DNA of 54,442 bases from Myxococcaceae bacterium (GTDB lineage Bacteria > Myxococcota > Myxococcia > Myxococcales > Myxococcaceae), in NCBI GenBank assembly GCA_019686135.1, contig JADGHL010000020.1, positions 1 through 54,442 on the forward strand, read 5' to 3'. Positions 13,723 to 21,869 of this stretch are shown in pieces. Numbering within the stretch: position 1 is the stretch's first letter; each line of letters opens with the position of its first letter. The notes beneath the pieces were generated by a model. The model saw only the letters and a list, made by a program, of their open reading frames with translations. It searched no databases and had not been told where the DNA came from. A program made the translations under genes and the position numbers.

Positions 13723-14322
13723 CTATCGCTTTTCTTCGATGACCTGCAAGGGCCAGGTCCCCATCGGCTGGCCGGCGATGCGCACCAGAACCTTCCAGGT
13801 GCCGCCGTGCGGCCGGGCGACGGGCGCCCAGTCGATCAGCCAGTCGACCTCGCCATCCTTCGCCCCCTTGAAGTTGAGCTCGCCGTTGCCGCTCATCGCC
13901 GTGTCCCCGCGCGAGTCGAGGATCGCCATCTCGATGGTGGCGGAGACGGGCCCGGAGGCCTTCACCCGCACCCAGGTCGTGAACTTCTGGGTGGTGGGCG
14001 GCTGGCCGTAGAGGGCGATCGCAGTGAGCAGGTCCCCCACGGGCTGGATGCCGTGGGTGGTCCGCGTGAAGTCGTACGCGTGCTGGACGCTGAGCACTTC
14101 GTAGTGAACGTCGCTGGTCGTGACCTTCGGGGAGATGCCCTCGGTCTGCGCCTTCGGGCGTTCGATCCCGTTGGTGTCAGGGAGCGCCCCACCGATTTTG
14201 CCCAGGCCCAGGTCCAGCGCCGGCACCTTCTTCGGAGGCGGTGCGCGCTTGTCGCCCGCGAGCCCGGCCGCGGGGACCAGGAGGATCAGAACGGGGAGAG
14301 CGGCGCACGGGACGCGGGACAT
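13723..14322 (-). CDS. Exported protein of unknown function
   Basis: 199 residues. N-terminal signal peptide MSRVPCAALPVLILLVPAAGLAG, then a basic Pro-rich linker (KRAPPPKKVP). The body is beta-rich, with TTWVRVKASGPVSATIEMAI and, near the end, GGTWKVLVRIAGQPMGTW. That layout, a Gly-Thr-Trp strand near the C-terminus of a small exported domain, loosely recalls the lipoproteins at 697 and 1808, but the match is too weak to call a family. It is 40 bp downstream of the DUF3592-like gene on the same strand. Confidence 0.65.
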   Translation of the reverse strand: MSRVPCAALPVLILLVPAAGLAGDKRAPPPKKVPALDLGLGKIGGALPDTNGIERPKAQTEGISPKVTTSDVHYEVLSVQHAYDFTRTTHGIQPVGDLLTAIALYGQPPTTQKFTTWVRVKASGPVSATIEMAILDSRGDTAMSGNGELNFKGAKDGEVDWLIDWAPVARPHGGTWKVLVRIAGQPMGTWPLQVIEEKR

Positions 14323-15233: not shown

Positions 15234-16463
15234 TCAGACCTTGCGTTCGTAGATCCGGTAGGTGCGGTACCGCCGCGCGCCCATCGACTCGAGCGCGCGG
15301 TTCATGAGGTGGTTGTCCTCGCACGTCCACCCGAGCTCGCCGCCGACGTAGCCGAGCGCCCGCGCGGCCCTCAGCGTTTCGGTGTAGAGCACCGCGTCGA
15401 TCCCGCGCTTCTGGAAGCCGGGCTTGATCCCCAGCATCAACACCCGCAGACGATCGTTCGCGCGCGTCGCCCACGCCAGCCGGGCGAGGCCGATCGGCAG
15501 GCCGAACCGGGTGAGATACCCGTTGGCCGCCTTGAGCCCGACGTTCGCGTCCGGGAACGTGAGTGAGAACGCGACGGGCTCGCCGTCCACCTCGGCGATG
15601 AAGCACAGCTCGCTGCGCAGCACCGCCAGTGGCCGCAGGCGCTCGGCGATGAAGTCGAACTCCGCGTCGCTCATCGGCACGAAGCCCCACTGGCGCCCGA
15701 GCATCGCGTTGTAGATCTGCTTGAGGATCCGCCGCTCGGAGCGCAGGTCCCTGAGGTTCAGCGGGCGCACCCGGACACCCTCTTCGCGCAGGCGCTCGGC
15801 GGCGCGCAGCACCTCCTCCGGCGGCGCCACCGAGGTGGACAGCTCGTACGTCCACAGGTCCTTCGCCTTGCGGAAGCCGGTGGCCTCGAAGAGGGCGGGG
15901 TAGTAGCGCGGGTTGTACGGCATCATCATCGCCGGCGGCGACCCGAAGCCCTCCACCAGAAGCCCGCAGTCGTGGTTGGTCGACAGGTTGACCGGCCCGA
16001 GCATCGACTTCATCCCGCGGGAGCGCACCCACTCGGCGGCGGCGTCGAACAGCGCTGCCGCCACGCCCGGTTCGTTCACCGACTCGAACATCCCGAAGAA
16101 GCCGACCTCGGTGTTGTGGAACTGGTTGTAATGGGGGTCGTCGATGGCAGCGATCCGGCCGACGATCTTCCCGTTGCGGCGCGCGAGGAAGAGCTGCAGC
16201 GAGGCGTGCTCGAGGAACGGGTTCTTCGCCGGGTCCACGAAGTCGCGGCGCTCCGCCACGATCGGCGGAACGAAGTTCGGGTCGTCGCGGTAGTGATCGA
16301 GCTGGAAGCGCACGAAGGCGTCGCGCTCGCTCGTGGTCCGTACCGGGGCGATGTCCACGTCCGCCGCGGGCTTCACGGCGTGTCGTGCGCGGGCGCCCTC
16401 CAGCACCGAGGCCGGGATCACCGTCCCTCCGGTGGAGGCGGGCCGTCCGCGCGCGCGGATCAC
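15234..16463 (-). CDS. GNAT-fold acyltransferase, putative bacterial ceramide synthase (copy B)
   Basis: 409 residues. The GTG at 16463 overlaps the stop of the epimerase gene (GTGA), and GGGAGGG is 7 nt upstream, so the start is well supported. Aligned by eye with the gene at 17502 it is a clear paralogue: HYRDDPNFVPPIVAERRDF, LFLARRNGKIVGRIAA, EVGFFGMFES, PYNPRYYPALFEATGF, RVLMLGIKPGFQKRGID and YRTYRIY all have counterparts. Proteins of this type (about 380-400 residues, GNAT-like) are, as I recall, the bacterial ceramide synthases found with spt and cerR in Caulobacter. They would N-acylate 3-oxosphinganine. The identification rests mainly on neighbours; other amine acyltransferases are possible. 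Confidence 0.7.
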   Translation of the reverse strand: MIRARGRPASTGGTVIPASVLEGARARHAVKPAADVDIAPVRTTSERDAFVRFQLDHYRDDPNFVPPIVAERRDFVDPAKNPFLEHASLQLFLARRNGKIVGRIAAIDDPHYNQFHNTEVGFFGMFESVNEPGVAAALFDAAAEWVRSRGMKSMLGPVNLSTNHDCGLLVEGFGSPPAMMMPYNPRYYPALFEATGFRKAKDLWTYELSTSVAPPEEVLRAAERLREEGVRVRPLNLRDLRSERRILKQIYNAMLGRQWGFVPMSDAEFDFIAERLRPLAVLRSELCFIAEVDGEPVAFSLTFPDANVGLKAANGYLTRFGLPIGLARLAWATRANDRLRVLMLGIKPGFQKRGIDAVLYTETLRAARALGYVGGELGWTCEDNHLMNRALESMGARRYRTYRIYERKV

Positions 16464-17464
16464 AACCAGCCCTCCCGGCGGTACCAGTCGATCGTGGTCT
16501 GCACGCCGGTGTTGAGGGGAACCTTCGGCGTGTACTTGAGCTCGCGCTGAGCGCGTTCGGCGCTGCAGGTCCACGCCTCCTGGCGCATCTCGGTCGCCTT
16601 GTCCCGGTTGAGGATGGGCACCGTGCCGCGGACCCGGCTGACCCACTCGGAGCCGAGCCCCGCGACGTAGCTGACCGCGTCCGGCACGGGGATGATCACG
16701 TTCCGCGTCTTTCCGAGCGCGCGCCCGAGCGTCTCGCAGATCTCCTCCCAGGTGTATTCGTCGCGCCCGTCGGTGAGGAAGTAGATGCCCTGGCCCGGCA
16801 CGCCCGCCTCGAGGGTCTTGCCCTCCAGCGCCGCCCGGTAGATGCCCTCGCACAGATCGTCGACGTGGATGAGCGAGTAGCGCTTCGGCCCGAGCCCGGA
16901 CTTCAGGTACAGGCCCAGCTTCGCCATCGGCAGCACGCTGGGGATGAACTCGCGGTCCGCGGGCCCGTAGACGATCGGCGGGCGAAGGATGACGGTGGGC
17001 ACCGTGTCTGCGTACTGCCGCACCGCCACCTCGCCGGCCAGCTTGGAGCGGCCGTAGACGGAGACGGGGCGGGGCTCGTCCTCCTCGCGGCGCGGACGGC
17101 CCACGGTGGTGGGCCCGGCGGCGGAGAGGGACGAGCAGTAGACCAGCCGGGGCGGGCGGTCGAGCCGGGAGATCGCCTCCGCCAGGCGCCGCGTCCCTTC
17201 GCCGTTGCAGCGGAAGTACTCCTCTTCGGTCCGGGCCTTGGTCAGCCCGGCGAGGTGGAGGACGACGTCCACATTGTCCAGCGCCTCCGCCAGCCCTTCG
17301 CCGGTGTTGAGGTCGCCGACGGCGAAGGTGGCGCCGGCCTTCTCCAGCTCGGTGCGCACCGACGTGCGCCGGACGAACGCGCGGACGGTGTGCCCGCGCG
17401 CGACGAGCAGACGGGCGAGGTTGCTGCCGATGAAGCCGGAGCCACCGGTGAGGAGAAAGTGCAT
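16460..17464 (-). CDS. NAD(P)-dependent epimerase/dehydratase-family oxidoreductase, putative ceramide reductase
   Basis: 334 residues, extended short-chain dehydrogenase. Rossmann motif TGGSGFIGS (6-14), LHLAG, YCSSLSAAG with catalytic Ser, and the YxxxK pair Tyr137/Lys141 in VYGRSK. Downstream VILRPPIVYGP and IHVDDL are typical of the family. Placed between two ceramide-synthase-like genes and downstream of an spt-like gene, it matches the position and type of CerR, the bacterial ceramide reductase that reduces the 3-oxo group. The order suggested by the Caulobacter work is acylation first, then reduction. A sugar-nucleotide epimerase would be the alternative, but no sugar genes are near. 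Confidence 0.75.
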   Translation of the reverse strand: MHFLLTGGSGFIGSNLARLLVARGHTVRAFVRRTSVRTELEKAGATFAVGDLNTGEGLAEALDNVDVVLHLAGLTKARTEEEYFRCNGEGTRRLAEAISRLDRPPRLVYCSSLSAAGPTTVGRPRREEDEPRPVSVYGRSKLAGEVAVRQYADTVPTVILRPPIVYGPADREFIPSVLPMAKLGLYLKSGLGPKRYSLIHVDDLCEGIYRAALEGKTLEAGVPGQGIYFLTDGRDEYTWEEICETLGRALGKTRNVIIPVPDAVSYVAGLGSEWVSRVRGTVPILNRDKATEMRQEAWTCSAERAQRELKYTPKVPLNTGVQTTIDWYRREGWL

Positions 17465-17501
17465 GGGAACCTCGGGCTCGGCCCGCGCCGAGCGATGGGC
17501 C

Positions 17502-18686
17502 TTAGAGGGGCCTCTGGTACAGGCGGTACGTCTTGTATCTACGGCCGCCCATCGACTCGATGGCGCGATTGACCAGATCGTTGTCCTCGAGCGTCCAGCT
17601 GATCTCGCCGCCGGTGTAGCCGAGCCGCCGCGCGGTCCGGAGCGTGTCGAGGTAGAGGATCGCGTCCAACCCGCGGCGCCGGTACCCCGCCTTGATCCCG
17701 AGCGTGATGAGCCGGAGCCGCTTGATTTTCCGGGACGCCAGAAGGAGCTTCGCCAGCCCGATCGGCAGCCCGTAGCGGGTGAGCCGGCCGCCCGCCGCCT
17801 TCAGGGCGATGTTCGCGTCCGGCAGCGTCATCGAGAAGGCGACCGGCTCGCCGTTCACCTCGGCGATGAGGAGGAGATCGGGGACCACCATCTGCTTCAT
17901 GTCGCGGGCGAGGTGGTCGAACTCCTTCTCGGTCATCGGGACGAAGCCCCAGTTCTTCTCCCAGGCCGAGTTGTAGATGTCCTTGATGATCCGGACCTCG
18001 CGGTCGAACTCCTTGATGTTGACCGGACGGACGACGATGCCGTCGCGGGCGCGGATCTTCTCGGCGATCCGCACCACCTTCTCGGGCGGCTCCACCGCGG
18101 AGGAGAGCTCCCACGCCCACAGGTCCTTCGCCTTCTGGAAGCCGCAGGCGTCGAACAGCGCGGGGTAGTAGCGCGGGTTGTAGGCCATCATCACTACCGG
18201 CGGCGCGTCGAAGCCCTCGATGAGCGTGGAGCACTCGTAGTTGGTGCTGAAGTTCACCGGGCCCATCATCGATTCGAAGCCGTGCGCCTTGACCCAACCG
18301 GCAGCGGCGTCGAACAGCCCGCGAGCCACGCGGACGTCGTCGATCGACTCGAACAGGCCGAAGAAGCCGACGCGCGTTCCGTGGAACTCGTTGTAGCGGG
18401 GATCCTTCACCGCAGCGATCCGGCCCACCACCTCGCCGTTGCGGCGGGCGAGGAACAGCTCGACGGCGCCGAACTCGAACCAGGGGTTCTTCTTCGGATC
18501 GAGGAAGTCGCGCCGCTCCATGATGAGCGGCGGCACCCAGTTCGGATCGTCCCGGTAGAGCTTGTAGGGGAAGTGGATGAAGGCTTCGCGATCCGCGGTC
18601 GACTGCACCGGGATCACCGTCACGTCGCTCGCGGCGGCGGCGGTGGCGGACTCGTCCTGCGTCAGCTTTCGTGCGGCGTTCGCCAT
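17502..18686 (-). CDS. GNAT-fold acyltransferase, putative bacterial ceramide synthase (copy A)
   Basis: 394 residues. N-terminal Ala/Thr-rich lead, then the family blocks KLYRDDPNWVPPLIMERRDF, LFLARRNGEVVGRIAAV, RVGFFGLFESIDD, MMGPVNFSTNYECSTL, MAYNPRYYPALFD and LITLGIKAGYRRRGLD, the last being the GNAT acyl-CoA binding loop. The ribosome site AAGGAG overlaps the stop of the spt-like gene 12 bp upstream, so the two are translated together. Probable role is transfer of an acyl chain to the amine of the long-chain base made by the spt product. It shares blocks with the gene at 15234 along most of its length. Confidence 0.72.
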   Translation of the reverse strand: MANAARKLTQDESATAAAASDVTVIPVQSTADREAFIHFPYKLYRDDPNWVPPLIMERRDFLDPKKNPWFEFGAVELFLARRNGEVVGRIAAVKDPRYNEFHGTRVGFFGLFESIDDVRVARGLFDAAAGWVKAHGFESMMGPVNFSTNYECSTLIEGFDAPPVVMMAYNPRYYPALFDACGFQKAKDLWAWELSSAVEPPEKVVRIAEKIRARDGIVVRPVNIKEFDREVRIIKDIYNSAWEKNWGFVPMTEKEFDHLARDMKQMVVPDLLLIAEVNGEPVAFSMTLPDANIALKAAGGRLTRYGLPIGLAKLLLASRKIKRLRLITLGIKAGYRRRGLDAILYLDTLRTARRLGYTGGEISWTLEDNDLVNRAIESMGGRRYKTYRLYQRPL

Positions 18687-18698
18687 GTTCGGCTCTCC

Positions 18699-20243
18699 TT
18701 ACGCTTCCGGCCGGGTACCGTTCTTCATGAAGAAGTTGGCGCCCTTTTCGAGCAGCACGCCCGGCAGGTTGCGGATCCCGCTGCGCTTCTCCCACAGTTT
18801 CAGCGGCGCCGTGGAGAGCCGCTTGAGGTCGTCGGGCTGCAGGTTGGCCGCGCGCCAGGTCAGTGTCTCCACCGCGTCGAACAGCTTGTTGGCCACCTCA
18901 CCCGGGGTCATGCGGGCGATCTGCTCGAGCGAGAACCCGCGGTCCGCGAGCAACCCTGCGGAAGCGGCCGCCCAGCGCTGCGAGGCCTCGTTGCGGATGA
19001 CGTAGGTGCCCGGCCGGGCGATCTTCACCGGCGTGTACGAGGTGGGCCGGGTCTCGGGGATGACCTTGAGCTTGCGGCCGATGCGCTCGAACTGCTCCAG
19101 CACCCGATCCAGCTGTTCGTCGGTGTGCGTGGCCATGTAGCTCGTGCGCAGCAGCGCATGCCCCGGCTCTACCGCCGGCGGGATCACCGGGTTGGTGAAG
19201 ATCCCCACCTCGAAGAGCTGCTTCCACATCCGGAAGCACTTCACCTGATCGCCCACGAAGACCGGGACCACCGGGGTCACCGACACGCCGGTGTCGAACC
19301 CCATGGCGCGGAAGCCGTTGTGCATCTTCTCGGCGATGTCGAGCAGCCGGGCGCGGCGCTGCGGCTCGGCCTCGATGATGTCCAGCGCCTTGAGGGCGGC
19401 GGCCACTGCGGCGGGCGTCATCGACGCGGAGAACACCACCGGGCGGCTCTTGTGCTTGATGTAGTTGATGACGTCGAATGGCCCGGCGATCACCCCGCCC
19501 AGCGACGCGAAGGACTTGGAGAAGGTCCCCATGACCAGGTCGGTCTGCGCCTCGAGACCGAAGTACTCGGCGGTGCCGCGACCCTTCTCGCCGAGAACAC
19601 CCATCGCGTGGGCGTCATCGGTCATCACGCGGGCTTTGTACTTCTGCGCGAGCTCGACGATCTTGGGCAGGTTGCACAGATCGCCCTCCATCGAGAACAC
19701 GCCGTCGGTGACGATGAGCTTGCCCGCGTCCGGATCGGCGTCCTGGAGGAGTTTCTCCAGGTGCTCCATGTCGTTGTGCCGGTAGCGCTTCTCGGTGGCG
19801 TAACCCAGGCGGATCCCGTCGAGCAGCGAGGCGTGGTTCTGCCGATCGGAGAAGACGATGTCGTGACGGCCGAGGATCCCCGCCATGGTGGCGAGGTTGG
19901 TCTGAAAGCCGGTGGAGACGACGAGCGCGGCCTCACGGTTGAGGAACTTCGCCAGCCGGTGCTCCAGCTCCTCGTGCAAAGACAGCGTCCCATTCAGCAG
20001 CCGCGAGCCCGAGCAGGTGGTGCCGAACTTGCGGATCGCTTCGTGGGCCGCCTCCTTCACCCGCGGATCGCCCGCCAGGCCGAGGTAGTTGTTCGACCCG
20101 ACCATGATGATCCGCTTGCCGTCGATCTCCACCTCGGTGGAGGCGTGAGAGGCTTCGATCGCCTTGAAGTACGGGTAGAGGCCCGTGGCCTTCGCGATCT
20201 TGTAGTCCTTCCAATTGCTGCACTTGTCGAACACGTCAGCCAT
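18699..20243 (-). CDS. spt: Serine palmitoyltransferase-like alpha-oxoamine synthase with C-terminal extension
   Basis: 514 residues from the ATG at 20243. PLP-dependent fold type I: GSNNYLGLAGDP, GTTCSGSRLLNGT, RQNHASLLDG, VTDGVFSMEGD, DDAHAMGVLG, and the PLP lysine Lys243 in GTFSKSFASLGG. The GTFSKS form is that of serine palmitoyltransferase, whereas KBL and BioF usually have LGKA. It should condense serine with a long acyl thioester to 3-oxosphinganine, the first step of sphingolipid synthesis. About 110 residues beyond the usual end (from about IPETRPTSYTPV) are extra. Linked ceramide synthase and reductase genes support the call; aminoketobutyrate ligase is the main alternative. Confidence 0.8.
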   Translation of the reverse strand: MADVFDKCSNWKDYKIAKATGLYPYFKAIEASHASTEVEIDGKRIIMVGSNNYLGLAGDPRVKEAAHEAIRKFGTTCSGSRLLNGTLSLHEELEHRLAKFLNREAALVVSTGFQTNLATMAGILGRHDIVFSDRQNHASLLDGIRLGYATEKRYRHNDMEHLEKLLQDADPDAGKLIVTDGVFSMEGDLCNLPKIVELAQKYKARVMTDDAHAMGVLGEKGRGTAEYFGLEAQTDLVMGTFSKSFASLGGVIAGPFDVINYIKHKSRPVVFSASMTPAAVAAALKALDIIEAEPQRRARLLDIAEKMHNGFRAMGFDTGVSVTPVVPVFVGDQVKCFRMWKQLFEVGIFTNPVIPPAVEPGHALLRTSYMATHTDEQLDRVLEQFERIGRKLKVIPETRPTSYTPVKIARPGTYVIRNEASQRWAAASAGLLADRGFSLEQIARMTPGEVANKLFDAVETLTWRAANLQPDDLKRLSTAPLKLWEKRSGIRNLPGVLLEKGANFFMKNGTRPEA

Positions 20244-20315
20244 GGGCCGGTTCCGTCCTGGGAGAGTGGGGGCGCAGGGATGCCTGAACTGACAGGCGCC
20301 TGCTGGGCGGGGGCT

Positions 20316-20344
20316 CAATTAGGAACGTGAACCATGTGTGTCAA
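20316..20344 (-). promoter_or_regulatory. Candidate sigma70-type promoter of the spt operon
   Basis: Read on the minus strand there is a perfect TTGACA (20344-20339), a 17-nt spacer and TAATTG (20321-20316) at the -10 position. The -10 is poor but the -35 and spacing are ideal. It would give a leader of about 65 nt before the spt start codon. Confidence 0.5.
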
Positions 20345-20413
20345 GGGCAAGTGAAGTGGCCGCTGCTCGACAAAAGGCTCCATAATTCAGTCGGTTACGC
20401 GGCGTGATGGCAG

Positions 20414-20431
20414 TGAGCAAAAAGTGGCTCA
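20414..20431. promoter_or_regulatory. Palindromic operator-like site 1
   Basis: TGAGCAAAAAGTGGCTCA: inverted TGAGC...GCTCA arms 8 nt apart. Thirteen or more bases match the second site at 20523 (TGAGCAA-N4-TGGCTCA). Found in the divergent region between the spt operon and the PAP2 gene. Likely binding site of a dimeric regulator, about 105 bp upstream of the predicted spt start of transcription. Confidence 0.6.
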
Positions 20432-20522
20432 CAAATCATCGGCAGGTGTCCGCTTTCCGGCAAACCGGGAGAACGCACGTAAATCCAGGGGCTTGGCGCG
20501 CGTGGCAGCCCAGTGATAACGC

Positions 20523-20540
20523 TGAGCAATATTTGGCTCA
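20523..20540. promoter_or_regulatory. Palindromic operator-like site 2
   Basis: TGAGCAATATTTGGCTCA, the same TGAGCAA-N4-TGGCTCA pattern as the site at 20414, exactly 109 bp away. The middle four bases differ while both arms are identical, as expected for a pair of binding sites for one protein. Confidence 0.6.
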
Positions 20541-20882
20541 CTGCTTCCAGATCGCTGGGGAAGGGACCCGCAGGGCGAACGGCGGTCGGACCGTTCGGTG
20601 GTCCACAATCCGGCGCCCGGAGTGTGACCTCGCGGTGACAGGAGAAGCCGCGGGCTCAACCACTCCGACGGCCGTCCAGGATGAGCGGAGGTGGGGGAGG
20701 GCGCAGACTCCGCGCATACCGGTGCGAGTCGAAGCTCCCTCGGGTGTTCACCAGGCCACAGGCGCAAACGCCCACCGGCCTGGCGAGCAAGCCTTTCCGG
20801 GCGTTTGCATGGCCTTCGGACCGGTCCCGCTGGTTGCGGCCCCCAGCGCCCGCCCTACCTTTTCCGGGCGAGGCGGAACGGC

Positions 20883-21869
20883 ATGCGTCGGGTCGAAGAC
20901 ATCGCCGCCATGCGGCCGTTGCTGAGGGGCCGAAGCCTGGCGCGGGCCCGCGCCGAGACGGTGCCGCTCAAGGCGCTGGACGCGATCATCACCTCGATGG
21001 CCACCTTCGCCGCCGCCTATCTGGCGATCGCGGCGCGCTGGGTCCCCGGGTGGCGGCCTGCGTTCCTCATCCTCTGCGCGATCGCGATGGGCCCGGTGGT
21101 GTTCCGGGGGCTGGCGTGGCGCTACCCGGAGACGCGCATCTGGGACTTCCTCGCCTCGTTCTGGTTGCTGCCCTCGGTGATCCTCGGGCACTTCACGCTC
21201 GAGCCCGTGGTGACCGCCGCGCATCCCGTGCTGCTCGACCCGTACCTCGCCCACGCCGATCTGCTCCTGTTCGGGGCGCACCCCTCGTACGTGCTAGGGC
21301 ACCTGGCAGGGCCGTGGGTCACCGAAGTGCTGATGATCTGCTACTACAGCTACTTCGTCGGGCCGTTCGCTCTGGCGATGCTCCTCTGGTTCCGTGGCAC
21401 GCGCTCGCAGTACGAGGAGTTCGCGCTCACGCTCGCCCTGTTCTTCGCGGCGAACTTCATCCTGTACGCGCTCGTGCCCGCGGTCGGGCCGCGCTACTAC
21501 CTCGCCGGGATCTTCGAAGCGCCGCTCCGGGGTGTCCTGCTCACGCCGTACCTCGACGGGCTGATGCGCACGACCTACTTCGCGCGCGACTGCTTCCCGT
21601 CCGGGCACACCGGCGTCACGCTGACCGTCCTCGTGGTGGCGTGGCGGTACCAGCGGAAGTTCTTCTGGATCTTCCTGCCGGTGGGGACGGGGCTGATCCT
21701 CGGCACCCTGGTGGGCCGCTTCCACTACGGGATCGACCTCATCTGCGCCGTGCCGTTGATGATCACCTGCCTCGCGCTGGGCAGGTACCTCCACCAGCGT
21801 GGGTTCACCGCCGCCCCGGACATGCCGCACCCGCAGAGCCTGCCGACGCGGCGCCCGCTCAAGGCGTAG
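20883..21869 (+). CDS. Aur1-like PAP2-family membrane phosphotransferase
   Basis: 328 residues, about six membrane helices. Family catalytic motifs are near the end: DCFPSGHTGVT (PSGH at 239-242) and GRFHYGIDLICA (His281, Asp285), the arrangement of PAP2_3 enzymes such as Aur1/inositol phosphorylceramide synthase. LVPAVGPRYYL sits before them. Such proteins transfer or remove a phosphate-linked head group on a lipid at the membrane face. Divergent from a probable ceramide operon, a role in ceramide head-group addition or phosphatidate/ceramide-phosphate hydrolysis is likely, but the donor cannot be told. The ATG at 20883 is chosen because the sequence before it is not protein-like. Confidence 0.78.
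   Translation: MRRVEDIAAMRPLLRGRSLARARAETVPLKALDAIITSMATFAAAYLAIAARWVPGWRPAFLILCAIAMGPVVFRGLAWRYPETRIWDFLASFWLLPSVILGHFTLEPVVTAAHPVLLDPYLAHADLLLFGAHPSYVLGHLAGPWVTEVLMICYYSYFVGPFALAMLLWFRGTRSQYEEFALTLALFFAANFILYALVPAVGPRYYLAGIFEAPLRGVLLTPYLDGLMRTTYFARDCFPSGHTGVTLTVLVVAWRYQRKFFWIFLPVGTGLILGTLVGRFHYGIDLICAVPLMITCLALGRYLHQRGFTAAPDMPHPQSLPTRRPLKA

Follow-up and report, generated by a model that had tools for sequence, protein, structure and literature searches.

What would a second ceramide synthase homologue and a PAP2-type membrane enzyme contribute to a bacterial ceramide pathway? The question is raised by a five-gene locus in a stretch of 54,442 nucleotides, hereafter the window, which corresponds to contig C62 of a 5.5 Mb assembly (245 contigs, 97% complete) whose closest named relatives are Myxococcaceae. 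The genes encode a predicted serine palmitoyltransferase (Spt), two GNAT-type N-acyltransferases (CerS1 and CerS2), a CerR-like short-chain dehydrogenase/reductase (SDR) and, on the opposite strand, a PAP2 protein; all five are open and intact. We consider it likely that, in this member of the Myxococcales, they form a sphingolipid locus that operates by the pathway proposed below. This reading draws on homology, gene order, conserved catalytic residues, the fold of the PAP2 protein, the co-occurrence of its gene with spt, and an old split between CerS1 and CerS2. Because the same set of genes recurs in the same order in related genomes, the set is not a chance assembly. The coordinates given for the locus by the initial annotation proved exact, and the five genes were found as it described them, including an spt with the GTFSKS motif. 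Its proposal of spt with two ceramide synthase homologues and a CerR-like SDR was borne out: the proteins match those of known ceramide operons over their full length, and the order of the genes is conserved.

Homology to known ceramide enzymes

In the PDB sequence comparison, the first 395 residues of Spt gave their top score with Sphingobacterium multivorum SPT (3a2b/8guh, 408 bits). The scores with other alpha-oxoamine synthases were 317-318 bits for the BioF/KBL-like 7poa and 8s1y, 270 for KBL 1fc4, 197 for BioF 1bs0 and 188 for ALAS. The GTFSKS motif occupies residues 239-244. These bit scores and the motif rule out that the first gene encodes KBL or BioF. The protein belongs to the Bacteroidetes/delta subgroup, unlike Spt of the Caulobacter/Rhodobacterial ceramide set.

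A search of plasmid records at the protein level recovered full-length CerS relatives near spt in Escherichia coli (yghO), Roseomonas mucosa, Sphingomonas parapaucimobilis, Rubrobacter and Streptomyces. In E. coli, Roseomonas and Sphingomonas, the locus with cerS includes spt and an acyl carrier protein (ACP) gene as well, and in E. coli and Sphingomonas it includes cerR. The reference sequences for comparison were those of E. coli, Roseomonas, Sphingomonas and Streptomyces. CerS1 shares 36% identity with E. coli YghO, which is encoded beside spt/acp/cerR/aasR (381 aligned residues, E 2e-80), and CerS2 shares 34%. CerS1 and CerS2 are 40% and 39% identical to the Roseomonas cerS product and 37% and 35% identical to that of Sphingomonas. 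CerS1 is also 53% identical to the Streptomyces copy adjoining spt. Because both proteins match Rhodobacterial cerS proteins end to end, over 370-390 positions at 34-40% identity, they are, at the sequence level, bacterial ceramide synthase (bCerS) homologues. The same full-length homology rules out two unrelated acetyltransferases. NCBIfam held no family for either GNAT, Pfam gave the generic GNAT domain alone, and a PDB sequence search with CerS1 returned no match.

The SDR is 28.8% identical to CerR of E. coli (E 2e-34), 30% identical to that of Sphingomonas (E 1e-30) and 45% identical to the Streptomyces SDR encoded by the third gene of an spt-cerS-SDR order. It is a CerR homologue, with identity by itself counting as moderate evidence because SDRs are numerous. 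The N-terminus reads MHFLLTGGSGFIG, in which no signal peptide is obvious without a predictor run; Caulobacter CerR has been reported to be periplasmic (PMC11087976). An SDR gene is present in 14 of the 20 mapped spt operons, the window's own included.

CerS2 as an old paralogue

In a tree of 53 sequences, CerS2 falls within a separate clade of 16 with a support of 100/100. This clade contains both the second cerS of spt operons and cerS from relatives that lack spt and carry a polyketide synthase (PKS) fused to an alpha-oxoamine synthase domain. CerS2 is therefore an old paralogue that has been kept in two kinds of long-chain-base loci. A recent tandem duplication is ruled out by the tree. 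The initial annotation had listed two ceramide synthase-like genes; both are homologous to cerS, with the refinement that the second belongs to an old and distinct paralogue group and is not a simple duplicate.

CerS2 might be a redundant or gene-dosage copy of CerS1 that performs the identical reaction on identical substrates. We consider this rather unlikely. Few alignment columns (six) separate the CerS1 and CerS2 groups cleanly, and the majority of the family's spt operons lack CerS2. However, the split is old, the clade has been retained in two different kinds of long-chain-base loci, and CerS2 is never the sole bCerS in the genomes examined. Recent dosage copies would be expected to pair within genomes. 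We infer that CerS2 instead handles an acyl chain different from that of CerS1 or acylates at a second site. The literature searched contained no paper on a second bCerS in myxobacteria, although this does not establish novelty.

Several relatives (loci L067, L070, L048, L044, L059 and L061) also have, with no spt nearby, a divergent bCerS-like gene of a third group, at 37-44% identity.

The PAP2 enzyme and its presumed head group

The motifs CFPSGHT and RFHYxxD are intact in 14/14 orthologues of the PAP2 protein, and the catalytic residues His242, His281 and Asp285 are invariant. The structure model has a predicted local distance difference test score (pLDDT) of 86. Its two best matches by VIA-align were yeast Aur1 (9ivc, Z 19.1 over 262 residues) and a second inositol phosphorylceramide (IPC) synthase (9vj4, Z 19.0 over 256 residues), and the match to both takes in the N-terminal helices. 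Lower matches, over shorter stretches, were LpxE (Z 15.6, 163 residues), PgpB (13.8) and SMSr (11.1). We call the protein a candidate Aur1-fold sphingolipid head-group enzyme.

Co-occurrence was analyzed in a sample of 60 genomes of relatives, with p-values that ignore shared ancestry. The PAP2 gene is present in 19/28 genomes with a long Spt and in 2/32 without one (p = 5e-7). In contrast, it shows no association with myo-inositol-phosphate synthase (13/38 genomes with the synthase and 8/22 without, p = 1), and the synthase is missing from 8 of the 21 PAP2 carriers. Because the PAP2 gene tracks spt and not myo-inositol-phosphate synthase, inositol is probably not the general head group of the PAP2 product. 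A firm assignment as an IPC synthase was set aside for this reason, the protein being Aur1-like in fold only. The initial proposal of an Aur1-like enzyme thus stands at the level of the fold and should not be extended to a maker of inositol phosphoceramide, since relatives keep the gene without the inositol-phosphate synthase and, in two of them, without any candidate PI synthase.

It is nevertheless conceivable, if less likely than a non-inositol enzyme, that the protein is a true IPC synthase, transferring the head group of phosphatidylinositol to ceramide like Bacteroides BT_1522 (PMC9246714) and yeast Aur1. It resembles these synthases and 9vj4 in its catalytic core, whole-chain fold and link to a sphingolipid pathway, and both best fold matches are IPC synthases. 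Moreover, the window genome has a myo-inositol-phosphate synthase gene on contig C224. Ceramide phosphoinositol has been reported from M. xanthus, as cited in PMC9246714, so that the gene set occurs in a known sphingolipid producer; M. xanthus AM003 carries the PAP2 gene in its spt locus. The protein differs from the IPC synthases in that no PDB chain of Aur1 or of an IPC synthase matches it at the sequence level, and several relatives keep the gene without the inositol-phosphate synthase, in line with the missing association across the sample. These include G040 (a single contig, 100% complete), G043, G046 and G048, and the CDP-alcohol transferases of G043 and G048 are PgsA and PssA only. The window genome itself has three CDP-alcohol transferases, whose best matches are PgsA, ClsA/PgsA and PssA and in no case a PI(P) synthase.

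Several observations weigh against the proposed reading of the locus. The best NCBIfam family for Spt is the SPT equivalog NF047600, and its score of 521 bits is below the cut-off of 640. The spt operons of six relatives (G007, G008, G011, G017, G030 and G036) have no SDR gene, and no close copy was found elsewhere in the genomes whose operon misses it; these lineages may use another reductase. The PAP2 gene is absent from 9/28 genomes with a long Spt. A single-protein PDB sequence search with the PAP2 protein gave no match, and a profile of its 14 orthologues found PgpB alone (E 0.005), with neither Aur1 nor 9vj4. The assignment therefore rests on fold and context, and PAP2-family proteins may also be phosphatases.

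A phosphatase acting on ceramide phosphate, phosphatidate, phosphatidylglycerophosphate (PGP) or undecaprenyl pyrophosphate (C55-PP), with no head-group transfer, would accommodate the superfamily motifs, which are common to PgpB and LpxE, as well as the position of PgpB as the sole notable PDB sequence match. We regard such a function as unlikely. The N-terminal membrane part of the model fits Aur1 and the IPC synthase too, whereas the phosphatases fit the core only (163-171 residues), and linkage to spt across families is ill-suited to a housekeeping phosphatase.

The substrate and C-terminal tail of Spt

The residues that hold pyridoxal 5'-phosphate (PLP) and serine in S. multivorum SPT have been named (PMC10196870). 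In the numbering of that paper, N52, G80, S81, H138, S185, D210, A212, H213, T241, S243 and K244 are, like the GTFSKS motif, invariant or almost so among 20 orthologues of Spt. Relative to the S. multivorum site, Ala79 is replaced by Ser, Ser53 by Asn and Met271 by Val. Conservation of the site supports serine as the predicted substrate, while falling short of proof. Use of alanine, glycine or lysine, giving 1-deoxy or otherwise atypical bases, is very improbable: SPT uses alanine and glycine weakly (PMC10196870) and position 78 of Spt is Ser, where Ala79 of S. multivorum touches the substrate side chain via water, but the remaining serine-site residues are unchanged, and the presumed head-group enzyme, whose PAP2 gene accompanies spt, requires the ceramide 1-hydroxyl.

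Spt carries a C-terminal tail of ~110 extra residues, which is also found in orthologues of the Myxococcales families f1, f2, f5, f6 and f9; most of these tails have the pattern DxxExxTxRAxN in common. Spt homologues from other phyla align only to about residue 395-424. The AlphaFold2 model shows the tail as helices at low confidence (pLDDT 37-47), and Pfam gave no family match. The tail thus appears to be helical, as far as a low-confidence model indicates, and characteristic of Myxococcales, not being seen in other phyla. As a guess, it may contact the membrane as an amphipathic segment or contact a carrier protein.

Proposed pathway

In the proposed pathway, Spt would condense serine with an acyl thioester to form 3-keto-sphinganine. 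Acyl-ACP is the likely acyl donor because an ACP/acyl-AMP ligase pair is encoded elsewhere in the genome, on contig C103, where the ligase gene adjoins that of a 78-aa carrier protein. This pair resembles the myxobacterial acpR-aasR pair, which is located away from spt, in M. xanthus among others (PMC9386255). CerS1 would N-acylate the long-chain base, and the SDR would reduce the 3-keto group to give dihydroceramide. CerS2 may serve as a specialized second acyltransferase that either gives the same amine another kind of acyl chain or acylates a second position. Finally, the PAP2 protein, acting as an Aur1-fold phosphotransferase, would take a phospho-head group from a glycerophospholipid and pass it to ceramide; as the general donor, phosphatidylethanolamine or phosphatidylglycerol is more probable than phosphatidylinositol. 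The substrates, the order of the steps, the role of CerS2 and the PAP2 donor are what we infer. The most specific form of the proposal joins a ceramide pathway with two acyltransferases to an Aur1-fold enzyme that supplies a head group other than inositol, drawn from phosphatidylethanolamine or phosphatidylglycerol; CerS2 would attach to the long-chain base either a further, chemically distinct acyl group or an unusual, dedicated chain. In this form the proposal is tentative and its chances are modest.

Comparison with relatives and known systems

The spt-cerS-SDR order also occurs in Actinomycetota (Rubrobacter and Streptomyces) and in M. xanthus. The M. xanthus AM003 locus (L100) reads PAP2-MMPL-spt-cerS1-SDR, followed by MlaC-like and TolC-like genes. 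It shares with the window spt-cerS1-SDR, the divergent PAP2 gene and the same flanking fructose-bisphosphate aldolase and aminotransferase genes. It differs in that cerS2 is absent, and HpnN/BstA-like MMPL, MlaC/HpnM-like and TolC-like genes are present. The MMPL gene lies between spt and PAP2 and the other two follow the operon (L100:7071-9596(-) and L100:13827-15822(-)), an arrangement seen in most of L094-L120. The set is found in Myxococcus, Corallococcus, Pyxidicoccus and Hyalangium, and Archangium has MMPL and MlaC only. The best matches of the AM003 MMPL protein are HpnN (268 bits, under the cut-off) and the sterol transporter BstA, and the MlaC-like protein of a relative best matches HpnM. 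These genes of the relatives are candidates for a sphingolipid route to the outer membrane. The window locus has no MMPL, MlaC-like or TolC-like gene, and the top MMPL match in the rest of the genome shares 30% identity. Locus L102, labelled Comamonas sp. KCTC 72670, is a typical Myxococcus-type locus and is probably mislabelled.

The sets of E. coli BL21, Sphingomonas and Caulobacter have been described as one aasR-cerR-acpR-spt plus cerS system (PMC9386255, PMC11324152), in which cerS is always in an operon other than that of spt (PMC11324152). The window shares with this Caulobacter/Rhodobacterial set homologous spt, cerS and cerR, and E. coli spt-acp-cerR-aasR and yghO were compared directly. 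Unlike that set, the window has an Spt with a C-terminal tail, cerS inside the spt operon, two cerS genes, and the ACP and AMP-ligase genes elsewhere. No Caulobacter-type kinase or LptF2/G2 gene was found at the window locus.

In the Pseudomonas SgaAB cluster (PMC12134224), an alpha-oxoamine synthase and a PKS make the long-chain base. The window mechanism is unlike this one, whereas some spt-less relatives look alike, with PKS and alpha-oxoamine synthase fused and adjoining CerS1 or CerS2 genes. In the relatives that lack a classical spt (L050:3-11766, L035, L043, L047 and L054), the neighbours of cerS encode a very large PKS together with an ACP and a fatty acyl-AMP ligase. A 2252-aa open reading frame fragment in L050 has KS-AT-DH-KR domains fused to an alpha-oxoamine synthase domain, and both CerS1 and CerS2 occur in this locus. 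These PKS-type loci probably represent a polyketide route to ceramide-like lipids.

Outside Myxococcota, a second cerS and PAP2 occur together in a Desulfuromonadales metagenome-assembled genome (L167:8982-14570, SDR-spt-cerS-PAP2-cerS). In a quick tree, the second cerS of this locus falls outside the CerS2 clade.

Layout of the locus

The features are listed in Table 1. The gap between spt and cerS1 is 12 bp and that between cerS1 and the SDR gene is 37 bp. The SDR gene and cerS2 overlap by four bases (GTGA) if GTG at 16463 is the start of cerS2; a start near 16421 is also possible. The PAP2 gene starts 640 bp upstream of spt. There are no additional gene calls between the five genes. The frame at 13723-14322 (-) encodes a protein of 199 aa that has a signal-like N terminus and matches no Pfam family. 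In several relatives its gene is conserved in the interval separating the cerS genes from the fructose-bisphosphate aldolase gene, and in L064 it adjoins cerS1.

Table 1. Positions of the predicted sphingolipid genes and associated features in the window
Feature	Position	Strand	Remarks
spt, predicted serine palmitoyltransferase	18699-20243	-	514 aa; Pfam Aminotran_1_2
Spt C-terminal extension, residues about 396-514	18702-19058	-	predicted helical tail
cerS1 (GNAT 1), bacterial ceramide synthase homologue, GNAT-type N-acyltransferase	17502-18686	-	394 aa; Pfam Acetyltransf_1
cerR-like NAD(P)-dependent SDR	16460-17464	-	334 aa; Pfam Epimerase; TGGSGFIG and YGRSK motifs
cerS2 (GNAT 2), second bCerS paralogue	15234 to at most 16463	-	up to 409 aa; Pfam Acetyltransf_1
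PAP2 integral membrane enzyme, candidate lipid head-group phosphotransferase	20883-21869	+	328 aa; Pfam PAP2_3
spt/PAP2 divergent intergenic region	20244-20882		control region presumed from gene coordinates

Implications

It is already known that Spt, bCerS and CerR synthesize ceramide and that myxobacteria, M. xanthus included, contain sphingolipids; Spt-like genes occur in many phyla (PMC11334938). The literature searched held no description of an operon with two ancient cerS genes, of an Aur1-fold gene that is linked with spt and not with the synthesis of inositol, or of the Spt tail. If the two-acyltransferase, non-inositol route proves true, it would be a bacterial phosphosphingolipid path unlike both the kinase route of Caulobacter and the inositol route of Bacteroides. 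With this locus, three questions can be tested in a group amenable to genetics: why two ancient ceramide synthase paralogues are retained in some bacteria, how a head group is added to ceramide in bacteria without inositol lipids, and what function the Myxococcales-specific tail of Spt serves.

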